Below, piece by piece: positions 10,454-52,030 of a stretch of 57,915 nt of DNA. This stretch comes from a virus. The notes under the pieces were generated by a model that made no database searches, had not been told where the DNA came from, and saw only the letters and a program-made list of their open reading frames with translations. The stretch is taken from positions 1-57,915 of the IMG/VR virus record IMGVR_UViG_3300005264_000019; one strand, given 5' to 3'. The position numbers and the translations under genes are program-made. Numbering within the stretch: position 1 is the stretch's first letter; every line of letters begins with the position of its first letter.

Positions 10454-10819
10454 CTATTCAGCAGATGCAGAATCCTTATTAACAGATACTTCCGTATTAG
10501 CTTCAAAATCGTGCATGGGAATAATCCCTTGTTCAGTATCATCTGAACCTACAACGGCGTCTCTATCAGCATTCTCTACGGGTATATCCATGCTTTCTTC
10601 CAAGTCTTCCAATGTGGGTAGAATTACAGGCTTCTTTCCTGCTTCTGCCACAAGTAGCATCTGCTTTTCAAGTAAATGCACCCGTTTGGATTGCAGTTTC
10701 AATAAATCTAATACAGTAACATAGGCTTCCTGAAGATCTCTGAAAGCCTTTGCCTGTCGCTTGGCCTGCTTAATTGCACGTTCATGTGCAATAGCAGACG
10801 TATCCATACCAAAACCCAT
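10454..10819 (-). CDS. Hypothetical coiled-coil protein of head module
   Basis: 121 residues: a basic helical N-terminal half (KQAKRQAKAFRDLQEAYVTV, then a leucine-rich heptad stretch) and an acidic disordered tail. Lies directly after the major capsid gene. May be a head accessory or fibre-like decoration; unassigned. Confidence 0.6.
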   Translation of the reverse strand: MGFGMDTSAIAHERAIKQAKRQAKAFRDLQEAYVTVLDLLKLQSKRVHLLEKQMLLVAEAGKKPVILPTLEDLEESMDIPVENADRDAVVGSDDTEQGIIPMHDFEANTEVSVNKDSASAE

Positions 10820-14234: not shown

Positions 14235-15805
14235 ACAAGTTCCCCACTATCATTATTCAAAATAACATTACCGGTATTGATTACTTCACCAGTACCAATA
14301 GCACCCACTTCATTACTTTGTAACCATTTTTGAGTTTCCAGGATTTTTACTTTTTCCTGTTCCAAAGACCAGTTTTTACTATACACATTCCGCTTATTCA
14401 AAAGATTGTAATAGGTTTCTAAAGATCCACCACCACTCTGTAACCATCCAAAAGCACTGATTAAATCAGGAATGTTGATTTCATTTTCCCAAAAATCAGT
14501 ATTAAGCTCTGTAGATACTTCAAATATGTCTTCCCCAAAATCCCACTGCATTTTAAATTTCAACATATCGCTAAAATCATCAGAAATAATATTTGCCATA
14601 TCACCAAGAATAGACTCTTCACTTGCTGCCTGAATCCTAGCGGTTTCAGCAGTAATTCTTGAATCACTGGTCCCGAGTACACGAGCGCCTAAGTAGGCCA
14701 TTCGTTTTTCTTTACTCGCCATTTCTTCTGCCAAGGGGGACGGACTGGTAGATTCCAGGATGTAAGGTTTTGCTTCAACAAAAGCAGTTTCCAGAACTCC
14801 TCCCATGGAAAGATTTTTACTATCCTCTGCAAGACCTCCAGGGATAACCGGGGTTTTAATTGACGTACGATGAATTTCATTTTCATAATCAGCAGAATTC
14901 CGGAAATGCCCTTTGTTAATTTCAGTTATTCCATCCAGAAGGGAAGGCTTTACAGTTCCCAGGGACTCCTGACCTGCACGATTAAACAGCCAGAAAGGAA
15001 TCTGTTCCATAGGAATTCCATCGTTTAATGGAGTTACATCCAGGATCAATTCAAACTGATGTTTTTTAGCATCGGAACTCTCTGTAATATCTTTAAATAC
15101 ACGTTGCCGATATGCATACCCAGAAGCAGTTAACTCTGAAGATTCCATTGTAAGTACACGATACTGAAAAGTACCTTGAGTACTGTATGACTGCATATTA
15201 AAATTATCAAGCCTTTCTTTTAAAACCAAAATAGTTAACTGCTTTTTATGGTTAATAGTCTGAACAAACCAATTTACAATACTTTCTGCTTTATACTGCA
15301 AAGCATTACTGAATACTTTCTGCTCTAATTGCTCTGCGCGGGATATCTGAGCATCTTCCAAAGAAAGAACGGGGTAATCCAAAAGTATCCCAAACCTATT
15401 TACAGTAATTACTTCATCAGTAATTTCCCGCAGCAGCTCCGTAGCAGACATTCCATCATCTGTAATGGAATTTAAATAATCCGCATACAATTCAGACGCC
15501 TGAGTCCCGTTTATTGAATAAACAGGATCTTTCTTATATATCAGACCACCCCATGCGTCAGCAGTTTCCTGTGCAGCTTGGTATAAAATTGCCTGTTCCA
15601 AATAAACAGCATACGATTCTTTACTCTGTTCTTCATCAATTTTCGGAAGAACCCCTTCTTGCAGTTTACGGACTTCTTGAGATCCTGCACGGAAGGCCCG
15701 ATTCATTCGCCAATTATGTTGCCATTCAATTACTTCACTCCGGACTGCACTAATATTCGCATCAGTAATATCCCCGAGTTCCAAACTCTGTGTATCTTTC
15801 TCCAT
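14231..15805 (-). CDS. Portal protein (DUF4055-like)
   Basis: 524 residues. Follows TerL and precedes the MuF-like protein. The N-terminal part has EVIEWQHNWRMNRAFRAGSQ and AQETADAWGGLIYKKDPVY; this glycine/lysine/aspartate-proline pattern, together with the RFGILLDYP strand, matches phage portal proteins of the DUF4055 type. It forms the dodecameric ring through which DNA is packaged. Confidence 0.82.
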   Translation of the reverse strand: MEKDTQSLELGDITDANISAVRSEVIEWQHNWRMNRAFRAGSQEVRKLQEGVLPKIDEEQSKESYAVYLEQAILYQAAQETADAWGGLIYKKDPVYSINGTQASELYADYLNSITDDGMSATELLREITDEVITVNRFGILLDYPVLSLEDAQISRAEQLEQKVFSNALQYKAESIVNWFVQTINHKKQLTILVLKERLDNFNMQSYSTQGTFQYRVLTMESSELTASGYAYRQRVFKDITESSDAKKHQFELILDVTPLNDGIPMEQIPFWLFNRAGQESLGTVKPSLLDGITEINKGHFRNSADYENEIHRTSIKTPVIPGGLAEDSKNLSMGGVLETAFVEAKPYILESTSPSPLAEEMASKEKRMAYLGARVLGTSDSRITAETARIQAASEESILGDMANIISDDFSDMLKFKMQWDFGEDIFEVSTELNTDFWENEINIPDLISAFGWLQSGGGSLETYYNLLNKRNVYSKNWSLEQEKVKILETQKWLQSNEVGAIGTGEVINTGNVILNNDSGELV

Positions 15806-17331
15806 TATACTCTCCCATAAGCCACTTTACGACTTGCTATTTTAATTGCGAATTGTGCGTAGTGGAATCCCGCAGTAATATTATCCACCATTTCATCATG
15901 AGTTTTTCCGGAACCATCAAACCGTTGTATCCCAGATAACCAAACTTTATTCCAGGGGGCTCTCATTACATGAATATTTCCAGCTTCAAAGATAGGTTCC
16001 ACAGGTGTACACCGTTGTACTTTATCCCCTTTTGGGAACACTGCCTTAACTGAGTATATACCACTAAGCTGTTTTTTTAAATAATTATACCCATCTTTAG
16101 AATCAACTGAGCATTCTACAAGGATTTTTACAAGATCCCCATCTTTATTTGCAATCTCTCTAATTTTACGATCTCGCTCAACAGCGCCTTCCCTAAACTG
16201 ACTATAGTCCAGTATCCAGATCTTCCATGTGGGCATTCTAGTAGCTGGATTAAGCGCCCCTCTTTCAAAACCAATTAAAGTCCCCCCAGTATAGTCAGGA
16301 TCCGCTCCTGTACGTTCTTTTGACGTATGTGCATAATCCCACACCCTAAAATAAGGAATGCGTGGAAAATCGGCTAAATCATTATGCCATACAACCCCAT
16401 TAGTATTTAAAATTCCACCTTCCCGTGGTACCGGGTCACAATTTAATAATGCTGCAGCAGAATACGGAGACATACTTCCAAACAAGGATCTATAATGTTC
16501 TTCAGAAAACCGCTCTAAAAATAAGTATTCCCCAGGGTATTCCTTTGCTAATTCAGACTCAGCTGCATCCCTTTCTGCAGGAAAGCTAAGTGATTCAAAC
16601 TGAGGAAAATCAGGATTATAGTCAGGGTGGTCCAGATCATTCCTATTTTGAATACGACCATGAATATCATCAATATGCCACTGAGTAGCTAATACGATGG
16701 TAATAGATACCGGCGCTCTACGCATAAGGAAACTATCGGTAAATTCATTCCAGATCTTCTCTCGCGTAGTGGATGACTCGGCATCCGCACGACCGCTAAT
16801 ATAATCATCCAATATACCCAGGCTATATCCCTGGCCATTGATACCAGAAGTTAAACCGGATGCAAGTACTTGCCCTTGCTGGTGGACATAATCATCGATT
16901 ACTGGATTATATGTTTTTATATTCCAATTTCCCGCCGCACTTCTATCCAGACGTACATCTGGAAATAATTCGCGATATTGTTCTGATTGAACAAGATTCA
17001 TTCCAAATCTGGAAAAACTTTCTGCAAGATGCTTTGCATATGAAATATTCATTACACTGTCATCGGGAAACTCACCAATAAACCGGGCCGGTAGATACCT
17101 GGATACAAGATCAGATTTACCCGCACGAGGATGTACTTTAATTCGGAGGTATGTTGACTTCCCTTGTTTAAAATCTTCAACTGCCTGATCTATATATTCG
17201 CATATCTTCCGGGTATGTAGTCCCACAATGAATGGATCTTTCATTTGCCAACAATGTTGCATAAAATTTAAATGATGCTTCTTGGCTTGAATTACCGTCA
17301 TGCGTTTTCGTATTTCAGGATAATTTGACAT
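15805..17331 (-). CDS. terL: Terminase large subunit
   Basis: About 508 residues. ATPase domain with a Walker A-like VHPRAGKSDL near residue 85 and a Walker B at YSLGILDDY; nuclease domain with acidic residues at RVWDYAHTSKE followed by DPDYTGG, and further acidic residues near the C-terminus. Cuts and translocates DNA into the prohead through the portal. Start ATG 17331 follows GGAGG by five bases; a longer reading would run into the terminator upstream. Confidence 0.93.
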   Translation of the reverse strand: MSNYPEIRKRMTVIQAKKHHLNFMQHCWQMKDPFIVGLHTRKICEYIDQAVEDFKQGKSTYLRIKVHPRAGKSDLVSRYLPARFIGEFPDDSVMNISYAKHLAESFSRFGMNLVQSEQYRELFPDVRLDRSAAGNWNIKTYNPVIDDYVHQQGQVLASGLTSGINGQGYSLGILDDYISGRADAESSTTREKIWNEFTDSFLMRRAPVSITIVLATQWHIDDIHGRIQNRNDLDHPDYNPDFPQFESLSFPAERDAAESELAKEYPGEYLFLERFSEEHYRSLFGSMSPYSAAALLNCDPVPREGGILNTNGVVWHNDLADFPRIPYFRVWDYAHTSKERTGADPDYTGGTLIGFERGALNPATRMPTWKIWILDYSQFREGAVERDRKIREIANKDGDLVKILVECSVDSKDGYNYLKKQLSGIYSVKAVFPKGDKVQRCTPVEPIFEAGNIHVMRAPWNKVWLSGIQRFDGSGKTHDEMVDNITAGFHYAQFAIKIASRKVAYGRV

Positions 17332-17352
17332 AGTGCCTCCAACCAAATCAAA

Positions 17353-17373
17353 TAAAACCCGGATTTCTCCGGG
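17353..17373 (-). terminator. Intrinsic terminator upstream of terL
   Basis: Minus-strand CCCGGA/TCCGGG stem with a GAAA-like loop, followed by TTTTATTTG, just before the terL ribosome site. Confidence 0.75.
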
Positions 17374-17393
17374 CCTCATAATTTAAAGTAATA

Positions 17394-18100: not shown

Positions 18101-18739
18101 TCAAATAACTTTCTTAAATGAAAAGCCACGTTTAGTAGTCGCACCAGTACTTGAATGTTTTCCTACAGTTAATTCAGATACCCCGGCAATGTCTGAAGCT
18201 CCTGGCATATCTGTAATAACAATCTGTTTTCCATTTTGCCATACTTCATACCGCGTTCTTGTAGGGGCTACCCTTAAACGGGCTACAAAACTCCTGGGAA
18301 TTTCATCCAGAGGAACATGTACGAAAGAATACCCTTGTTTACATACACCTCCATGGGATACACGGTATTGTAAAGTCCCATAAGGAACCTCCAATTTATC
18401 ACAGGCTTCTTTCATATACATCCGACCAACAAATTCAACTCCATCTTTATAACAATCAACCATCCTGGCCTGCCCTTTTGCATACGGGTTCTGTTCTTCT
18501 GCGGGAAGATTTTTATCATCCTCCCGCATAGCCTTTGCTCCACTCCAGGAAGTTCCAGGTTTTGATTCTATTTGAGATACTTTGTTAATTCGGATATGCA
18601 AGGGAATATGCCTTAAATCATATACCGCCATAGTGGGTTTTACAGCAATAGCCCTCTCTACAGTAGCTGTGGTCCCTAGAACCCCCTTTCCAGGGGTTAA
18701 TGTACGCAAACTCCCACTACCCAAAGATAACCTACCCAA
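18101..18739 (-). CDS. Predicted DNA-binding protein with two NUMOD-like repeats
   Basis: 212 residues. Two C-terminal units share a helix-turn-helix-like pattern that ends in G-[YF]-S-F: one around CDKLEVPYGTLQYRVSHG ending GYSF, the other around SDIAGVSELTVGKHSS ending GFSF. This resembles the modular NUMOD1-type DNA-binding repeats of homing endonucleases, but no HNH or GIY-YIG domain is seen. Start is a TTG with AGGAG eight bases upstream, overlapping the preceding stop. Confidence 0.6.
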   Translation of the reverse strand: MGRLSLGSGSLRTLTPGKGVLGTTATVERAIAVKPTMAVYDLRHIPLHIRINKVSQIESKPGTSWSGAKAMREDDKNLPAEEQNPYAKGQARMVDCYKDGVEFVGRMYMKEACDKLEVPYGTLQYRVSHGGVCKQGYSFVHVPLDEIPRSFVARLRVAPTRTRYEVWQNGKQIVITDMPGASDIAGVSELTVGKHSSTGATTKRGFSFKKVI

Positions 18740-18962: not shown

Positions 18963-20573
18963 CTATATTTCTGTACAATCGCTTAATAAGTGTACATTAC
19001 TTCCAAGCAATTGTGCATTTGATTTGAAATATTTCTGTGCCTTTGCGATTTCCAAATTCAACTCTACTGCAGCTTCTCTGGGAGTTCGCAACCATCCTTT
19101 CAATCTACCGGCTTCTACATTTAACTTCTGCATAAAGTCCATATCAAACTTAAAATGCATATTACCATTCTTATGGGCCTTCACTTCCATAAATACCTTA
19201 TCATCATGCTTGAATATTTGCTTCTTCCCGGATACCCATTCCAACTTTGTAGAATCACCAACCACATTGAATCCCAGGTTAATCCCTACAGCCTTCACGT
19301 CGCTGAGTAGAGTATGCACGTCCTGATACAATCCCCCCGGATACTGATAAGAATCCCATGAACTACCTCCAATGGCCCTGAATCCTTCATTCACTATCCG
19401 GTAGTCTAATTTGTAATGGGATGCCCTAGCTTTGAAATTCCAGCAAGTTTCATACCTGCTCGGTTTCTCTACAAGGTGGGAATTAGAAACATAATTGATT
19501 ATATTTTCGTACTTTGTAAATTCATCGTATAAATCCAGAACTTGCTGATCAAAATATTTATTAGCATTCTTTACAGCCCAAATTACAACAGAATAAATAT
19601 TGGATAATGTAAAATCCACTGACGTATTTTCCCGGAGCTTTGTGAGTAACTTCTCTCTACTCTTTGAAGTTAAACGCCGAATTATTGCATCCAGTCTATT
19701 AAAAAGTTCTTGCCAGTATATATTTTTCAAACCAACAATCTTTTCCCGTAAACCTTTCTTCAATCCTTCTACATTAACTCCTAGCTCCTTCAGAATAATG
19801 TTATCCAAAACCTCTACCGCTTTATAGTTATTCAGAAGTATTTCAAAATCCTGGCTATAATTCTGCGTCAGATTCTTTATGATATCCTTATCAACCAATG
19901 CTTTTAATCGAGAGGATGCGGATGCCTGTTGTGTATATCCAGGAACTGGCTGCTTATCTGCCTTTATTTTGAAATGAGTATCAAACCATAAATCAAACGG
20001 ATCCACTTTTAATTGATTTGCCCGATAATTCATACTTCCTAAAGAAATACGAAGTATATCTACGTTTGCTCGGGCTTTCCGGAACTCTGAATCCATAAAA
20101 GAGAAATTCCCCAAATTAAATACAGTACCATCCCGCTTCTGAATCGCTGAGGATATTCCCTGATGGCTTTTCCACCTATCAGGGATGATAAGGTATATAC
20201 AAGGACAATTAGCTTCCAGGATAAGCTTTTCTGCCCATTCAGCATATTCAGTATATGGCGGGTTACAAAATATAGTATCCATTGTCTTATCTACAAATGA
20301 TTGCTGATGGAATTCTGTACCCACAACGAATACATCTGCTGGCATCGCATTTATTAACAATTGTGACTTTTCTATTGCAAACTTCTCATAATGCTTATCT
20401 GGATCCAGTTCCTGCAAGAGAGTGAAGAAACTTCCGTTCCCAGCTCCCACGTCCATTATCTTTGTATACCGAGGATCCATATTACTATGTATAGTCTGAA
20501 CCATTTGCCGAGTAGTAGGATACCACTCATAATCCTGCCCTGCTGCTTTAACATCTACCAGAAGATCATTCAT
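18963..20573 (-). CDS. N6-adenine-type DNA methyltransferase, DUF4942-type C-terminus
   Basis: About 536 residues. The N-terminal domain has the SAM-binding motif MDVGAGNGSFF and catalytic IFCNPPYTEY (NPPY, gamma-type amino-methyltransferase). The C-terminal part ends with NGNMHFKFDMDFMQKLN, the pattern of the DUF4942 domain found fused to phage and prophage methylases. No restriction partner is nearby, so it likely protects phage DNA or marks it for packaging. Start ATG 20573 overlaps the preceding TGA (ATGA); the ATG twelve bases earlier is less suited. Confidence 0.82.
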   Translation of the reverse strand: MNDLLVDVKAAGQDYEWYPTTRQMVQTIHSNMDPRYTKIMDVGAGNGSFFTLLQELDPDKHYEKFAIEKSQLLINAMPADVFVVGTEFHQQSFVDKTMDTIFCNPPYTEYAEWAEKLILEANCPCIYLIIPDRWKSHQGISSAIQKRDGTVFNLGNFSFMDSEFRKARANVDILRISLGSMNYRANQLKVDPFDLWFDTHFKIKADKQPVPGYTQQASASSRLKALVDKDIIKNLTQNYSQDFEILLNNYKAVEVLDNIILKELGVNVEGLKKGLREKIVGLKNIYWQELFNRLDAIIRRLTSKSREKLLTKLRENTSVDFTLSNIYSVVIWAVKNANKYFDQQVLDLYDEFTKYENIINYVSNSHLVEKPSRYETCWNFKARASHYKLDYRIVNEGFRAIGGSSWDSYQYPGGLYQDVHTLLSDVKAVGINLGFNVVGDSTKLEWVSGKKQIFKHDDKVFMEVKAHKNGNMHFKFDMDFMQKLNVEAGRLKGWLRTPREAAVELNLEIAKAQKYFKSNAQLLGSNVHLLSDCTEI

Positions 20574-22566: not shown

Positions 22567-22635
22567 AAATTGAAACACATAATTCAATTATATAAAATGA
22601 ATAGGACTTAATAACGAATATGTATAATATCTTTT

Positions 22636-22671
22636 ATTACCCGCCGAGAGGTAACACCTTATGCGGGTAAA
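22636..22671 (-). repeat. Hairpin in the 22.6-22.98 kb non-coding stretch
   Basis: TACCCGC...GCGGGTA inverted repeat with an inner AGGT/ACCT stem. No U-run on either side. The 390-bp stretch between 22587 and 22980 otherwise contains a tiny CxxC ORF and terminator hairpins. Confidence 0.5.
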
Positions 22672-22749
22672 TTATCAGCCAGTTAACAACATGACTGTTA
22701 ATTCCTATCTTTCCGGAAAGCAAACTTACGTAATGACCAACTACTCAAT

Positions 22750-22830
22750 TCATCCTGTAGCATCTTCCAGGTAAACACCACATCCACAGCAAAGTAATCC
22801 AGACAACATACCATCTGCAATTTCACCCAT
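22750..22830 (-). CDS. Tiny zinc-finger remnant or small protein
   Basis: 26 residues beginning MGEIADGMLSGLLCCGCGVY, with a GGAG site 11 bases upstream. The start matches the N-terminus of a widespread small phage protein (M-G-E-I-A-D...C-x-x-C-G) whose full form continues with a second Cys pair; here a TGA stops it after LEDATG. Either a truncated relic or a minimal gene. Confidence 0.4.
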   Translation of the reverse strand: MGEIADGMLSGLLCCGCGVYLEDATG

Positions 22831-22877
22831 ATTTCTTTTACTCCATATCCTATACAAGAATTTCAAAACAAATGGTA

Positions 22878-22903
22878 TAAAAAGACCGGTATCTCTACCG
22901 GCC
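22878..22903 (-). terminator. Intrinsic terminator
   Basis: Minus-strand CCGGTA/TACCGG stem with a GAGA loop followed by TCTTTTTAT, downstream of the exported protein gene at 22980-23525. Confidence 0.7.
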
Positions 22904-22959
22904 CGAAATATAAATCTATACCACTATTGATATAAGCAATCCCATACGGGACTACTGCA

Positions 22960-22982
22960 ATAAAAGGAGTCCAGGCCTTTTA
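22960..22982 (-). terminator. Hairpin at the stop of the 23525 gene
   Basis: AAAAGG/CCTTTT stem straddling the TAA of the upstream gene, with a T-rich end. Weaker than the one at 22878-22903. Confidence 0.45.
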
Positions 22983-24966: not shown

Positions 24967-25353
24967 CTATACAGAATCTACAGACTTGATGACGGAATCT
25001 TTCTTAGATTCATACCATGCCATCAAAGCATCCAGAAAATAAGCAGATATGTGAGCCCGGAATTCTGACTCTTTCCTATCTACCCACATTTCCCGGAATA
25101 TATTATCCAATACATGCTAGGCCTCATGAAAGATTAACTGACGATCCAAGGTACGAAGCCATACAATACTTCCCCAGGCCTGACCATCCAGGGTCCCAGG
25201 GGTATCAAATTCAGACATATCCTTTCCGCAATCTTTAAAATACTAAACATAAGAATTCCACCCTTCCAGGCCGTAATGAATATCCACAGTTATATCAATC
25301 AAGGGAATCGTAATTATATGTGGACCCATTGAACTATCTGTCAATGTTTTCAT
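24967..25353 (-). CDS. HEXXH-type protein with two in-frame amber codons
   Basis: From ATG 25353 (GGGGGA ten bases upstream, overlapping the end of the small terminase gene) the frame runs 128 codons to a TAG at 24967, broken only by two TAG codons (25240-25242 and 25117-25119). The coding quality is continuous across both: before the first, TIPLIDITVDIHYGLEGW; between, FDTPGTLDGQAWGSIVWLRT; after the second, HVLDNIFREMW then EFRAHISAYFLDALMAWYE. The second amber sits inside the zinc-protease motif (H-E-A-amber-H), with a downstream Glu-rich EFRAHISAYF helix that could carry the third ligand. Either amber read-through/recoding or a two-hit nonsense relic. Confidence 0.55.
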
Positions 25354-25888
25354 GAGATTTCTGTCCCCCAGAAGCTGCACCGATTACTTCTGCCAACGCA
25401 TCCTTTTCAGCATCACTTATATCCGGATTATCCAGGATTGTAAGTGCTGCGGCAATCACACTATCCGGAAGAGACTCCAACGGATCTTTTTCAGGCATCG
25501 CAACCAACCCAATAGGCCTTAATGGATCCCCTACAAGACTCGTTTCTTTACCCCACCTCTTCTTATATCTCCGTTCCAAAAATTGTACCGTTGCAGTAGA
25601 GTTATCATAAGTCATTGACTTCAAGGAAGTTACAGCGTCCACCTCACATTTTGCATCAGCCCTCTGTACTGACTCAAAAAATAAAAGGTATAACTTCTCA
25701 CCTTGGTTTAATCTACGCTTTTGTTTCAATCTTTCTTCATATAGTAACTTACCTCTCTTCATATAGTTATAGTAAGTCTGTTCTGATATACCTTCTGATA
25801 GGCATACGACATTTGCATAATTACCGTTACGTATCTTTAATGCTATGCTTTTGATCTGATCTTCAGTTATCATAGGTCCTCTAGCCAC
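25334..25888 (-). CDS. terS: Probable terminase small subunit
   Basis: 184 residues. The N-terminal helix-turn-helix region (ITEDQIKSIALKIRNGNYA, then GISEQTYYNYMKRGKLLY) is the DNA-recognition type seen in phage small terminases, followed by a helical oligomerisation stretch and RYKKRWGKE. It lies 8 kb away from terL, which is unusual. A regulatory DNA-binding protein is the alternative. Confidence 0.65.
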   Translation of the reverse strand: MARGPMITEDQIKSIALKIRNGNYANVVCLSEGISEQTYYNYMKRGKLLYEERLKQKRRLNQGEKLYLLFFESVQRADAKCEVDAVTSLKSMTYDNSTATVQFLERRYKKRWGKETSLVGDPLRPIGLVAMPEKDPLESLPDSVIAAALTILDNPDISDAEKDALAEVIGAASGGQKSHENIDR

Positions 25889-25931: not shown

Positions 25932-26666
25932 TTATACTGCCCGATCTACCTTTACCCAGGCGCCATATTTGTTTCTAAGGTACTGTCTGGTGTGCCTTAT
26001 TCGTTCTGTGGAGCGGTATTGAGTCTGACCCCCGTCTCCTGCATTTATGGGAATAAGAGGGTCCATAGCGATACGTTGATCCCGCCAGACGATTCCTCTT
26101 TTGAACTGTTCCATATATACAACGTCCACGTCCTCTGCGAGCATAATATTTGTATCGAAACGGAGACGGTGGTCCAGGATGCACATAGCACCTCCCAGGA
26201 TAGAAGTGTTAATACTTATAGGCTTCATGCGGTTGGTAAACTTAGGGCCTTTTGAATAATCCAGGGAAAATACTTTTGCTTGGAATTCCATACATAGTTC
26301 AGTATCTTCCAAAAGCACATTCATAAAATCCTGCGGAGATATTGTTACAAACTTCGGTCCAAATACCCACATGAATTTCCTTACATCATCATCCATCGTA
26401 AACATAGCTGTGTAATCTTCTGTAAACAAGTTTTCCAGGATCCAATTCAACTTTCTCTGTTTACCCAAAATGCTATCAGGAATCCCATGTATGATTGCTT
26501 CCGGAACCGCCTTTTCATAAGATTCCACTTCTGATTCAAATACCACTACATGTATAGGAAAATACTTCGAATATTCTAATACTACAGATTTCCGTATTAC
26601 ATCCTCTCTTCCCATACTGGGGACCACAAATAGAATATCCCGCAAGACTAATTCATTTTTCATCAT
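25932..26666 (-). CDS. GT-A-fold glycosyltransferase-like protein (paralogue 2)
   Basis: About 244 residues. N-terminal VVPSMGREDVIRKS (nucleotide-binding turn of TET-associated phage glycosyltransferases), an acidic triad FTMDDDV (DxD-type metal site), and later LAEDVDVVYMEQ. Closely resembles the next upstream gene in order and motifs, so the two are paralogues. Likely substrates are modified bases in phage DNA; inferred from the family type. Start ATG 26666 follows GGGAG by five bases. Confidence 0.7.
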   Translation of the reverse strand: MMKNELVLRDILFVVPSMGREDVIRKSVVLEYSKYFPIHVVVFESEVESYEKAVPEAIIHGIPDSILGKQRKLNWILENLFTEDYTAMFTMDDDVRKFMWVFGPKFVTISPQDFMNVLLEDTELCMEFQAKVFSLDYSKGPKFTNRMKPISINTSILGGAMCILDHRLRFDTNIMLAEDVDVVYMEQFKRGIVWRDQRIAMDPLIPINAGDGGQTQYRSTERIRHTRQYLRNKYGAWVKVDRAV

Positions 26667-27384
26667 ATACACTCCCTGCCGATATATATCTTTTTACATA
26701 TGGCCCGAATTTACTTATCAGATATCGTAATCCCCGCTGCAAACTGGCTGCGGTACGATGTTTGTTTATTCCTCCCTGCACAGTTCCCATCTTCCCGCCC
26801 AACTGCTCCATCAAATACCGGCCATCCGATACACAAAGACCATGGTGAAAGAGACACCACATAGATAATTCAAAATCATCCAAAACATCCATTTCAGGAT
26901 CAAACCTTATTTTAGGATCTGAAAATACAATCAGACAATTCACTACCCTGCCTTTCATATGAATAGGAGCCGGACGGCGTACCCTGTTTATTCCCCCAGG
27001 GAATGCACGAAATGAAAAGAAAGGAACCCCGATTACTGCCGCCAGTTCCATATCCTCACGAATAGCCTGCATAACATCTTCAGGAGTCAATTTTACTGAC
27101 TTTCGCCATAACCCCCACAATACATTTTTTATATCATCATCCATCATCATAAGCTCATTGGATTCAGGCCACAGATTTTCCAAAGCCCAATTACGAGTAC
27201 GGGGTAAATTCTTTTCAGGACATTCCACAATATGAACTTTAGGATGTTCCATATATTTCTTATATTCGAGAGCTTCCCCAGGGGTTACAACTACATACAT
27301 ATCCTCCAGGAAAGGCAATAATCGCCATGCCATTGTTTTAGGAATAAATTCCGGCCTCCCCATACTCGGAATTACCAGCCTCAT
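26653..27384 (-). CDS. GT-A-fold glycosyltransferase-like protein (paralogue 1)
   Basis: 243 residues. VIPSMGRPEFIPKTM at the N-terminus, MMMDDDIKN acidic metal site, GGINRVRRPAPIHMKGR and a late DFELSMW. The pattern matches TAGT-like phage glycosyltransferases and its downstream neighbour. Both follow a ParB-like gene, a combination reported for DNA hypermodification loci. Activity and sugar are unknown. Confidence 0.7.
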   Translation of the reverse strand: MRLVIPSMGRPEFIPKTMAWRLLPFLEDMYVVVTPGEALEYKKYMEHPKVHIVECPEKNLPRTRNWALENLWPESNELMMMDDDIKNVLWGLWRKSVKLTPEDVMQAIREDMELAAVIGVPFFSFRAFPGGINRVRRPAPIHMKGRVVNCLIVFSDPKIRFDPEMDVLDDFELSMWCLFHHGLCVSDGRYLMEQLGGKMGTVQGGINKHRTAASLQRGLRYLISKFGPYVKRYISAGSVYDEK

Positions 27385-36967: not shown

Positions 36968-39607
36968 CTATACTGCGTTAATTATTCCAACTTCATCCAC
37001 TGTGGACCATGATTCATCTACTCCCCCTACTGCCTTCTCAACATAAAAGGGAACAACTGCCCATGGACACATTTCAGGAATCCGTACATTTACTATCCAA
37101 GTCATCACTTTATCCAAATACTCTTCCTCTTCAGGATGTGCATCCAATACTAGACTATCGTGAATCTCACAGAAAACTTTTGATTTTGCTCCATCTTTCT
37201 TTAACTTATCGCTAAGAAGATTCATTGTCATCAATTTAACGTGTGCTGCAGTCCCTTGTATTGCAAAATTGGTAGCCTGCGTCTTAGCAAGATTTCCAAT
37301 TGCATAAAAACCAGTAAAATACCGAATCCTTCCGCTTTCCGTATACTTCTTCCAATTACGTTCACGCCATGCTCCCAAATCAGGGAATAAAATATTCCAG
37401 AAATAATTCTCTACTGATTTAATCCACTCCAACCATTCCTGATAAGACTCCATTCCAGTACGGCTACTAAAATCATCCCAATACTTGGAACCTTCTTCTG
37501 TTTTAAAAAATTCCCAAAAATAAGAAGCACTGGTATCCGCACTTGCACCGTATAACTGAGAAAATACAAACCCCGATTTCGTTTCTTGCCGAAAGGCCTT
37601 CGCTCCACCAGCATCAAACTTCGCAATCATGTCATCCCAGGAGTACTTCATAATATAAGCACCCATATCCCTATGCATGTCCTTACTAAGATTCCTGGCA
37701 TATTCCATCAAGACTTCATCTCGGGAATAACAGGCATACATGGATACTTCAAAAGCTCTGAAGTCATATTCCATAAACTGATGCCCCGGAGTAGGAATAA
37801 ACACATCCCGAAGTAGCTGTTTTACTTCCTTATCCCGCTTTGGAATATTCTGTAAATTTATTGAATTAGAACTGGTTCGATAAGTACTAACATTCCCCAG
37901 CCCAAAAAAACAATGAAGCGTCCCATCAACAACTTCTCTTTTTATACCAACAACATATTCAAGAACTTTAGACCATTTCCTGTATTTCTGAATATGCCCG
38001 TATACTGCAGATTTCCCCTGCTTTGCCAAATCTTCCAAAACTGACTTATCTGTAGACGGCTCCCCACCCTTCGTCTTCTTTTTAACCTTTTCTCCCATAT
38101 ATGCATAAATAAAATCTTTCAAATCATCTGTGGACCCCTGATCAAACAAATGGCCATTTATCTCCCGCCATTTTGCTACATCAGGATCGTTTTGAATTGC
38201 CTCATTTGCTTCAGAAATATAATTAAGAACATCTTTCTCAGCCTGCATCAATCCCGAAGTAGAAATATTTACACCATTCCGTTCCATTCCAACATATGTA
38301 CTAGAAGACTTCATAAATAAATCAAAACCTTTCCGGCGATGACCATCCATGTGAGCTATTTGATTATCTGCTATTTTATATGTAAGATGGCTATCTTCTG
38401 CGCAATAAAGACAAACTTCATCTATTGGTGCGTATTCCATCATATTGATTCTATTAGCTGAATCGGAATCATCCCCAGGACGAGTATATTCTATATATGG
38501 ATCCAGCCGATTATCATACCCCATATTTCCATAGTGGACATATGAGAGAAATTTCAATCCAGTAATTCCAGGACGGTTATCCATAATATGCTGGGCCACA
38601 TAGGGATCAAAATACCAATTTGCTACTTTATATCCCAACAATACTTCGGTCCAGGTTTCCTCATACTTATGATTATGAGCAACCTTCTGAATCTTTTTAT
38701 TCTGTAATAATTGTGCTAATTCATACCGAAATTCCCGACTGGCATACATTTCAAAACCAAATGACATAATACCATTTGAAATTGATACACAAATAATCTT
38801 ATGCCCTTTCTTATCCGGTTTCAAACCCGTAGTCTCATAATCAAAAGCAACCCGTTTGGCTTTCTGGCAAGTCTTAATCCAAGAAATAGCTTCCTGTTCA
38901 TTATCCAGATACCCACATTCTGAACTGTAATCATATTTATGAAATGTTTTATGATCTTTTAAAGCATCCCGTATCAACTTACGAGAAGACTTATCCAAAA
39001 CAAAACTTTTCATCCACCGAACGACTACAGGATCAAACACTGGATAAACCATCGCTTTCAATTCCTGGTCAGGGATCTGCCAACCCGCCCAGCATACAAT
39101 ATCCCCGGTTTTCACTCTGGAACTTGCGCGATGCTCCAATATTGCAGCAACCGGGTCCTTCCCGACCAGTATAATCTTCTCAGGCTTCAACTTCCTGATA
39201 GTTCGGAATAACTGATATCTACAATTATTCCGCATACCATCTTTCACTTTATCAACGGGATAACGTACAGCCCATGACATCCAGCAATCCCGGTCCAAAT
39301 CCACTCCGGACTTGTAAAATTCTTCTTTTAAAAATTCATACTGTTCCCCGGAACGATAATTTTTAGTTACTATAGAACTAAGCTCCGGGGAATCACAAAC
39401 TACAAGGATTTTCTTATGTCCACTACCAATATACATTGCTTCAGTATTCTTCTCTTGGCATTGCACCTTCAAAGAACACTTATCACATTTATTCCGCAAA
39501 CATTTTCTATCTTCACCATCCTGAATCTTTTTATCAATATCCGATAATGCACGTTCAATATCAGTCTGTGCTTGTGAAACGTCTATAAATTCCCCGAATA
39601 ACCCCAT
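36968..39607 (-). CDS. DNA polymerase I with N-terminal UDG-like domain
   Basis: 879 residues. N-terminal UDG-type domain with a 4-Cys cluster (C36, C41, C44, C50), then a 3'-5' exonuclease with AFDYETTGLKPDK, HNHKYEETW and YCAEDSHLTYK, then family A polymerase motifs: EYDFRAFEVS (motif A), RQETKSGFVFSQLYG (motif B) and IHDSLVLD (motif C). This domain fusion is known from SPO1-like phages with modified DNA; here it may read deaminated or modified bases. It is the main replicative polymerase. Confidence 0.9.
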   Translation of the reverse strand: MGLFGEFIDVSQAQTDIERALSDIDKKIQDGEDRKCLRNKCDKCSLKVQCQEKNTEAMYIGSGHKKILVVCDSPELSSIVTKNYRSGEQYEFLKEEFYKSGVDLDRDCWMSWAVRYPVDKVKDGMRNNCRYQLFRTIRKLKPEKIILVGKDPVAAILEHRASSRVKTGDIVCWAGWQIPDQELKAMVYPVFDPVVVRWMKSFVLDKSSRKLIRDALKDHKTFHKYDYSSECGYLDNEQEAISWIKTCQKAKRVAFDYETTGLKPDKKGHKIICVSISNGIMSFGFEMYASREFRYELAQLLQNKKIQKVAHNHKYEETWTEVLLGYKVANWYFDPYVAQHIMDNRPGITGLKFLSYVHYGNMGYDNRLDPYIEYTRPGDDSDSANRINMMEYAPIDEVCLYCAEDSHLTYKIADNQIAHMDGHRRKGFDLFMKSSSTYVGMERNGVNISTSGLMQAEKDVLNYISEANEAIQNDPDVAKWREINGHLFDQGSTDDLKDFIYAYMGEKVKKKTKGGEPSTDKSVLEDLAKQGKSAVYGHIQKYRKWSKVLEYVVGIKREVVDGTLHCFFGLGNVSTYRTSSNSINLQNIPKRDKEVKQLLRDVFIPTPGHQFMEYDFRAFEVSMYACYSRDEVLMEYARNLSKDMHRDMGAYIMKYSWDDMIAKFDAGGAKAFRQETKSGFVFSQLYGASADTSASYFWEFFKTEEGSKYWDDFSSRTGMESYQEWLEWIKSVENYFWNILFPDLGAWRERNWKKYTESGRIRYFTGFYAIGNLAKTQATNFAIQGTAAHVKLMTMNLLSDKLKKDGAKSKVFCEIHDSLVLDAHPEEEEYLDKVMTWIVNVRIPEMCPWAVVPFYVEKAVGGVDESWSTVDEVGIINAV

Positions 39608-40649: not shown

Positions 40650-41288
40650 CTATATATCTATCTTATCCCGGAATTTCCGGGCTTTCGCCTTCATTTCTTT
40701 AGGACCGCATACGGCACTGGTAGCCCCCTGGGAAGTTTGCAGTAACCCCTGCTGTATGAATAATGTCCGGTATGCGCTGACCCGAACTACTGACACATTA
40801 CTCCATTCTGAAATCCTCTGCACTCCCGGCAATTTCCCCTGGCCACCTTTTAACATTGCATCTATTACACGGTCCATTTCTTCTAAAACCACATCTTTTT
40901 TAGGAACTATATGCTTTACTGATTTTGGAACTATCTTCTCAGGATCCATTAACATTATGATTCCTATTTCTACTCCGGACAAAAGAACCATTAAAAAGAT
41001 CCCTAAAAATTTCTCAGCATCCACCTGTAACAATTGAGCTACCCGGGTAAACTCTGCTGAAGCAACCGACCCATAGGATATCCCTGCAATATCCCGTAGA
41101 ACTTGCTGTTCCCCTTCCAGTCGGTTAATAGTTGAAATGGCATGTTCTCTCTGAAGAGCGAAAATAACCCGGTGCTGCGTCAATTCTGAACGCTCTTGTG
41201 ATCTAATAGTAATCGTAGTGGAAAGCCTATCTGACGCCGTTATCCATCCAGATTCAAGGATATCAATCTGATCTATTTTTTCATCCAC
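40650..41288 (-). CDS. Membrane-anchored protein with C-terminal winged-helix-like domain
   Basis: 212 residues: coiled-coil N-terminus (residues about 1-75), one transmembrane helix (LGIFLMVLLSGVEIGIIMLM, about 95-115), then a DNA-binding-like segment ending YRTLFIQQGLLQTSQGA. Such an arrangement could tether phage DNA to the membrane. Start GTG 41288 in an open frame that follows a TAG. Role inferred from topology. Confidence 0.55.
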   Translation of the reverse strand: MDEKIDQIDILESGWITASDRLSTTITIRSQERSELTQHRVIFALQREHAISTINRLEGEQQVLRDIAGISYGSVASAEFTRVAQLLQVDAEKFLGIFLMVLLSGVEIGIIMLMDPEKIVPKSVKHIVPKKDVVLEEMDRVIDAMLKGGQGKLPGVQRISEWSNVSVVRVSAYRTLFIQQGLLQTSQGATSAVCGPKEMKAKARKFRDKIDI

Positions 41289-50961: not shown

Positions 50962-51162
50962 CTATATCGGTGATTTTTTAGGACTAGAATCCTTTTCAGG
51001 TTTTTCCAATCCCAAATAATTTACTGCAAGTTCCTGAAGCTGGTCCAGGACTTCCATAGCATCTTCATTCGGATTAACATCTGCTTCCAAATGAACACTT
51101 TCAGTCTCATAATTACCAAGATTTTTATTAGTTTCATAGTGAACCTTTGTAATCTGTCCCAT
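50962..51162 (-). CDS. Conserved small phage protein
   Basis: 66 residues; NYETESVHLEADVNPNEDAM resembles short proteins encoded beside phage SSB/recombination genes. Unassigned. Confidence 0.6.
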   Translation of the reverse strand: MGQITKVHYETNKNLGNYETESVHLEADVNPNEDAMEVLDQLQELAVNYLGLEKPEKDSSPKKSPI

Positions 51163-51952: not shown

Positions 51953-52030
51953 TGGGACTGGAAGGAATTGAACCCCCGACCGCCACTCTGTTGAATTACA
52001 AAGCCAGCTCTACGACTGAGCTACAGTCCC
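51953..52030 (-). tRNA. tRNA with aberrant anticodon arm (Thr-TGT-like)
   Basis: Minus strand gives a 7-bp acceptor (GGGACTG with CAGTCCC), D arm GCTC-loop-GAGC and T arm GGGGG-TTCAATT-CCTTC, so the L-shaped body is clear. The anticodon region is not standard: TTTGTAA recalls tRNA-Thr(TGT), but stem bases do not pair around it; a CTTTG/CAGAG stem would give an 8-base loop and a long variable arm. CCA is not encoded. Real tRNA body, identity uncertain. Confidence 0.6.

Follow-up and report, generated by a model that had tools for sequence, protein, structure and literature searches.

The window analysed here, i.e. the whole stretch of 57,915 nucleotides of IMG/VR virus record IMGVR_UViG_3300005264_000019, carries on its minus strand a broken gene of the HEXXH type, which overlaps the end of the small terminase subunit gene (coordinates are collected in Table 1). 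Its frame comprises 128 codons from the ATG to a terminal TAG and is interrupted by two further TAG codons, the translation being MKTLTDSSMGPHIITIPLIDITVDIHYGLEGWNSYV, TAG, YFKDCGKDMSEFDTPGTLDGQAWGSIVWLRTLDRQLIFHEA, TAG, HVLDNIFREMWVDRKESEFRAHISAYFLDALMAWYESKKDSVIKSVDSV and the final TAG. There is no TAA, TGA or frameshift in this frame, and both coordinates and lesions are exactly those given in the preliminary description, which had also correctly placed the second amber within the zinc-binding motif. This motif reads H-E-A-TAG-H, and hence is not intact in the product; its H, E and H residues, as well as a later E, are kept.

Table 1. Features of the HEXXH locus and related elements in the window.
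Feature	Position	Strand	Basis or remark
PHROG 1365/882-like HEXXH gene, broken by TAG codons 37 and 79	24967-25353	-	frame, codon usage, profile matches
In-frame TAG no. 1, codon 37	25243-25245	-	within predicted helix 28-41 of a low-confidence model
In-frame TAG no. 2, codon 79	25117-25119	-	position 4 within HEXXH (residues 76-80)
Codon 90, TGG (Trp)	25084-25086	-	homologue alignment; Gly in most relatives, after the HEXXH helix
Terminal TAG of the HEXXH gene	24967-24969	-	coding signal gone beyond; C-terminal length agrees with homologues
Small terminase subunit gene (TerS)	25334-25888	-	phrog_4102; overlaps the HEXXH start; own stop is TAG
Large terminase subunit gene (TerL)	15805-17379	-	phrog_38; about 8 kb from the HEXXH gene here, adjoins it in relative G001
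Sole tRNA-like gene	51953-52030	-	Rfam, 42.5 bits

The codon usage of all three segments is that of the real genes of this phage. Codon log-odds per codon are 0.11, 0.29 and 0.34 for segments 1 to 3, compared with a mean of 0.29 for real genes and of -0.32 for wrong frames (95th percentile 0.03); in all their other frames the segments score below zero, so the preliminary description was right in calling the flanking coding intact. In non-coding frames, 34 of 18,162 overlapping 128-codon windows show at least two TAG without TAA or TGA. No second HEXXH gene able to substitute for the broken one was found in the window.

Concerning the surroundings, two adjacent genes upstream (25932-26672 and 26653-27384, minus strand) resemble TET-associated glycosyltransferases (PF20691), and are in turn preceded upstream by an apparent ParB-like gene (visual inspection) and one resembling ATPases (phrog_33349), an ensemble that suggests DNA hypermodification. 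Between TerS and TerL, the largest uncalled gap (22588-22979) contains one partly coding-looking frame with stops; an sroB-like RNA match at 22876-22958 is sub-threshold (32.8 bits against a cut-off of 44).

Family assignment is based mainly on profile-profile comparison. Using hhalign, the read-through protein matched a three-member family profile with E = 3.7e-10 over residues 12-113, spanning both ambers, and a nine-member profile with E = 2.5e-10. Direct hmmscan hits were weak (phrog_882 E = 0.009-0.018, phrog_1365 E = 0.08-0.24); at genome level phrog_882 matched with E = 6.9e-4, running through the second TAG, and phrog_1365 gave no match to the whole genome. The match across both ambers argues for descent from a single uninterrupted gene of the small phage HEXXH family. 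Judged from this domain-wide homology, the locus is a member of the PHROG 1365/882 family, both ambers lying inside a former single domain.

Proteins of this family, such as those of Acinetobacter phage DMU1 (QOI69790.1), Eggerthella phage PMBT5 (gp03) and several IMG/VR contigs, share with the present one their length and the HEXXH motif followed by E-x-x-A, and phrog_1365 members also the W-L-x-x-L-D stretch ahead of the motif. Scanning viral contigs with the motif as a pattern yielded L054, L055 and L056, with phrog_1365 matches of E = 1.1e-9, 2.9e-9 and 3e-4, respectively; L054 and L055, together with L006, are intact full-length homologues, relative to which both ambers are premature stops, as in nonsense pseudogenes. 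The full-length homologues hold all three segments, so that the loss of a segment in relatives, which the preliminary description thought would undo its reading, does not occur among them. Identity to relatives is mostly 24-29%, and the present copy is set apart by its two in-frame TAGs and by codon 90, which encodes Trp where Gly is common. This change at a single largely conserved site may, from the alignment, hint at relaxed selection or a further decay mutation.

Gene order provides a second line of comparison, since a position beside terminase or head genes is frequent in the family, if not defining alone. Among relatives on long contigs the best is G001 (68 kb), whose major capsid protein (MCP) is 47% identical; it has an intact HEXXH copy (phrog_1365 match, 4.6e-6) in the order TerS-like ORF, 107-aa ORF, HEXXH, TerL, portal, where the terminase labels derive from position and sequence reading and the portal from tblastn. 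In PMBT5 the order is TerL-HEXXH-portal. G001 is the only relative found through MCP with the gene beside the terminases: the eleven other MCP-related records, three of which measure 39-42 kb, show no PHROG 882 match and one PHROG 1365 match, within the limited sensitivity of the search and with most records being fragments. Due to this near absence, the gene seems dispensable. In relative G009, an apparent lesion flagged as '1 TAA' was discarded, the TAA being simply the stop of a 146-aa ORF that is intact.

No close relatives were retrieved from IMG/VR by HEXXH, TerS, TerL or DNA polymerase searches, nor any MCP relative among genome contigs; searches of phage and plasmid DNA gave no match, and a PDB profile search nothing significant. 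Two anomalies were observed in other records. In L036 (Acba_16, OQ101258.1; at about locus 507) about 127 bases, duplicated exactly in tandem, split the HEXXH gene, which is otherwise identical to an intact phage copy; this length equals a common assembly k-mer and the duplication is hence probably an assembly artefact. In a related metagenome contig (L003:1023-1962) the major capsid gene is frameshifted near 1760, probably a sequence error.

The alignment suggested in the preliminary description does place residues at both ambers, but reveals none common to the homologues at either. Amber 1 is aligned with K (L054), Q (L055) and L (L006), a placement uncertain by one or two residues at 24-29% identity, and amber 2 with S, L, F, N (L056) and, in further homologues, V, Y, W and T. 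Gln thus occurs once only, at amber 1 in L055, and recoding at a conserved residue is not observed. Since both sites are variable, the homologues name no decoded residue, and by the same token an inserted residue need not damage the protein. The AlphaFold model is weak (pLDDT 63, pTM 0.46) and fold searches with it gave no meaningful match; it places amber 1 within a helix and amber 2 within the HEXXH helix, which would leave a truncated product without the active site.

Elsewhere in the window TAG acts as a true stop, as had been proposed: it ends 15 of the 82 listed ORFs, including DNA polymerase and TerS. Six of these stops precede GAG (534-536, 10454-10456, 18963-18965, 36968-36970, 40650-40652 and 50962-50964 (-)), so that TAGGAG doubles as the ribosome-binding site for the gene that follows, an arrangement that fits true stops. 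This habit of overlapping stop and Shine-Dalgarno sequence imitates in-frame read-through. For several TAG-ended ORFs another long ORF follows in frame; the apparent fusions at 534, 2370, 10454, 18963, 23872 and 40650 were rejected as recoding, all being gene junctions, four with the TAG in TAGGAG upstream of the next ATG and those at 2370 and 23872 with other spacers. An all-frame scan of the window for stops flanked by coding sequence revealed no other gene with an internal in-frame stop, its remaining top hits being gene junctions or stops followed by non-coding sequence. An in-frame TGA at 18101 was likewise dismissed, since the sequence after it reads as non-coding and intergenic, and a terminator-like hairpin followed by a run of T was seen there by eye. 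In this phage, TAG is not sense generally.

Hence, a genome-wide reassignment of TAG (code 15 type) confined to late genes is scarcely credible. Several ORF pairs would indeed fuse if TAG were sense, but these are the junctions just described; moreover, MCP, portal and TerL contain no in-frame TAG, and coding density under table 11, the standard code, reaches 93%, compared with a median coding capacity of about 67-69% for recoded phages (PMC11210395). Code-15 phages (crAss-like, phAss-1, Lak), in which TAG usually means glutamine, do resemble our locus in that TAG interrupts the frame of a gene that is otherwise intact. However, they have numerous genes interrupted in this way, TerL and structural ones among them (41 ORFs in phAss-1), often possess CUA suppressor tRNAs and place the recoded Gln at conserved Gln sites (PMC10607447), whereas here a single gene is affected, without conserved-Gln sites and without an amber suppressor tRNA, which is frequent in such phages if not universal.

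Under gene-specific read-through, a suppressor tRNA of the host, or leaky termination, would place an amino acid at each TAG, so that a certain amount of full-length HEXXH protein arises. This is the reading that the preliminary description favoured; nothing found supports recoding, and we regard such read-through as quite unlikely. In its favour, coding quality and family residues are kept in all three segments, many residues are tolerated at both amber positions, and TAG is the only lesion type. Against it, TAG is a common stop that no other gene uses as sense, and two successive events would give a very low yield. In E. coli, a following U makes for strong termination, and amber 1 has this context; no known read-through motif was spotted by eye around either TAG. 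No tRNA with a CUA anticodon was found in the window, even with relaxed searches, in agreement with the earlier failure to find one. The unusual tRNA-like gene, which had been left as a candidate suppressor, was rejected because no reading of it yields CUA: ARAGORN finds no tRNA in the window with default settings and calls this one, with anticodon UCA, under the intron option, and Rfam shows no further tRNA up to E = 5. Its anticodon stem (CUUUG/CAGAG) closes an abnormal 8-base loop, UAAUUCAA, three bases separate D stem and anticodon stem, and CCA is not encoded, so it is possibly degenerate or of frameshift type. The contig is perhaps incomplete, and an amber suppressor tRNA may lie elsewhere in the phage or in the host. 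A related idea, that a standard-code phage uses both ambers as deliberate throttles and thereby restricts active metalloprotease to amber-suppressor hosts, seems highly unlikely. If read-through were true, it would be a rare case of gene-specific double amber suppression in a phage. It is also unlikely that sequence or assembly error created one or both TAGs. The record is an IMG/VR-type virus contig, and such records can be faulty, as illustrated by the frameshifted capsid gene of L003; however, that a gene of 128 codons should have been hit by two errors independently is improbable when other ORFs have no internal stops, and frameshift, the commoner kind of error, is absent.

Most probably, in our judgement, a small HEXXH metalloprotease-like phage gene, whose proper place is next to the terminase genes, has recently been inactivated here by nonsense mutations; this is the possibility that the preliminary description had left open and that is now the best supported. 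Two base changes would have produced TAG at codons 37 and 79. Given that TAG stops translation elsewhere in this genome, synthesis from the ATG would end after 36 residues, without any HEXXH site; the read-through product would then be absent and the gene presumably dispensable to the phage. The intact copy between TerS and TerL in G001 supports this, as do the normal use of TAG as a stop, the restriction of internal stops to this gene, the lack of a CUA tRNA and the varied residues at the amber sites. The coincidence of two ambers and no other lesion, formerly read as a sign of recoding, is weak evidence: about 44-49% of the nonsense paths from the sense codons of the gene lead to TAG, therefore two random nonsense hits would both be TAG with probability 0.19-0.24.

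On the other side, frameshifts are absent, codon usage is normal and the motif's H, E, H and later E are kept. Only about 4.4% of random substitutions in the gene are nonsense, and therefore two neutral nonsense hits would usually bring tens of other changes together with some indels. Since the locus drew attention precisely by looking odd, this argument from missing damage loses weight. Like nonsense pseudogenes, the gene is cut short by early stops while its frame retains clear homology to intact genes; unlike them, it has no frameshift or deletion yet, and hence, if it is a relic, is a young one. The inactivated gene would then imply that an HEXXH gene of the packaging neighbourhood can be lost, and the locus would serve as a cautionary case, where TAGGAG-overlapping stops together with one amber-only pseudogene can mimic recoding.
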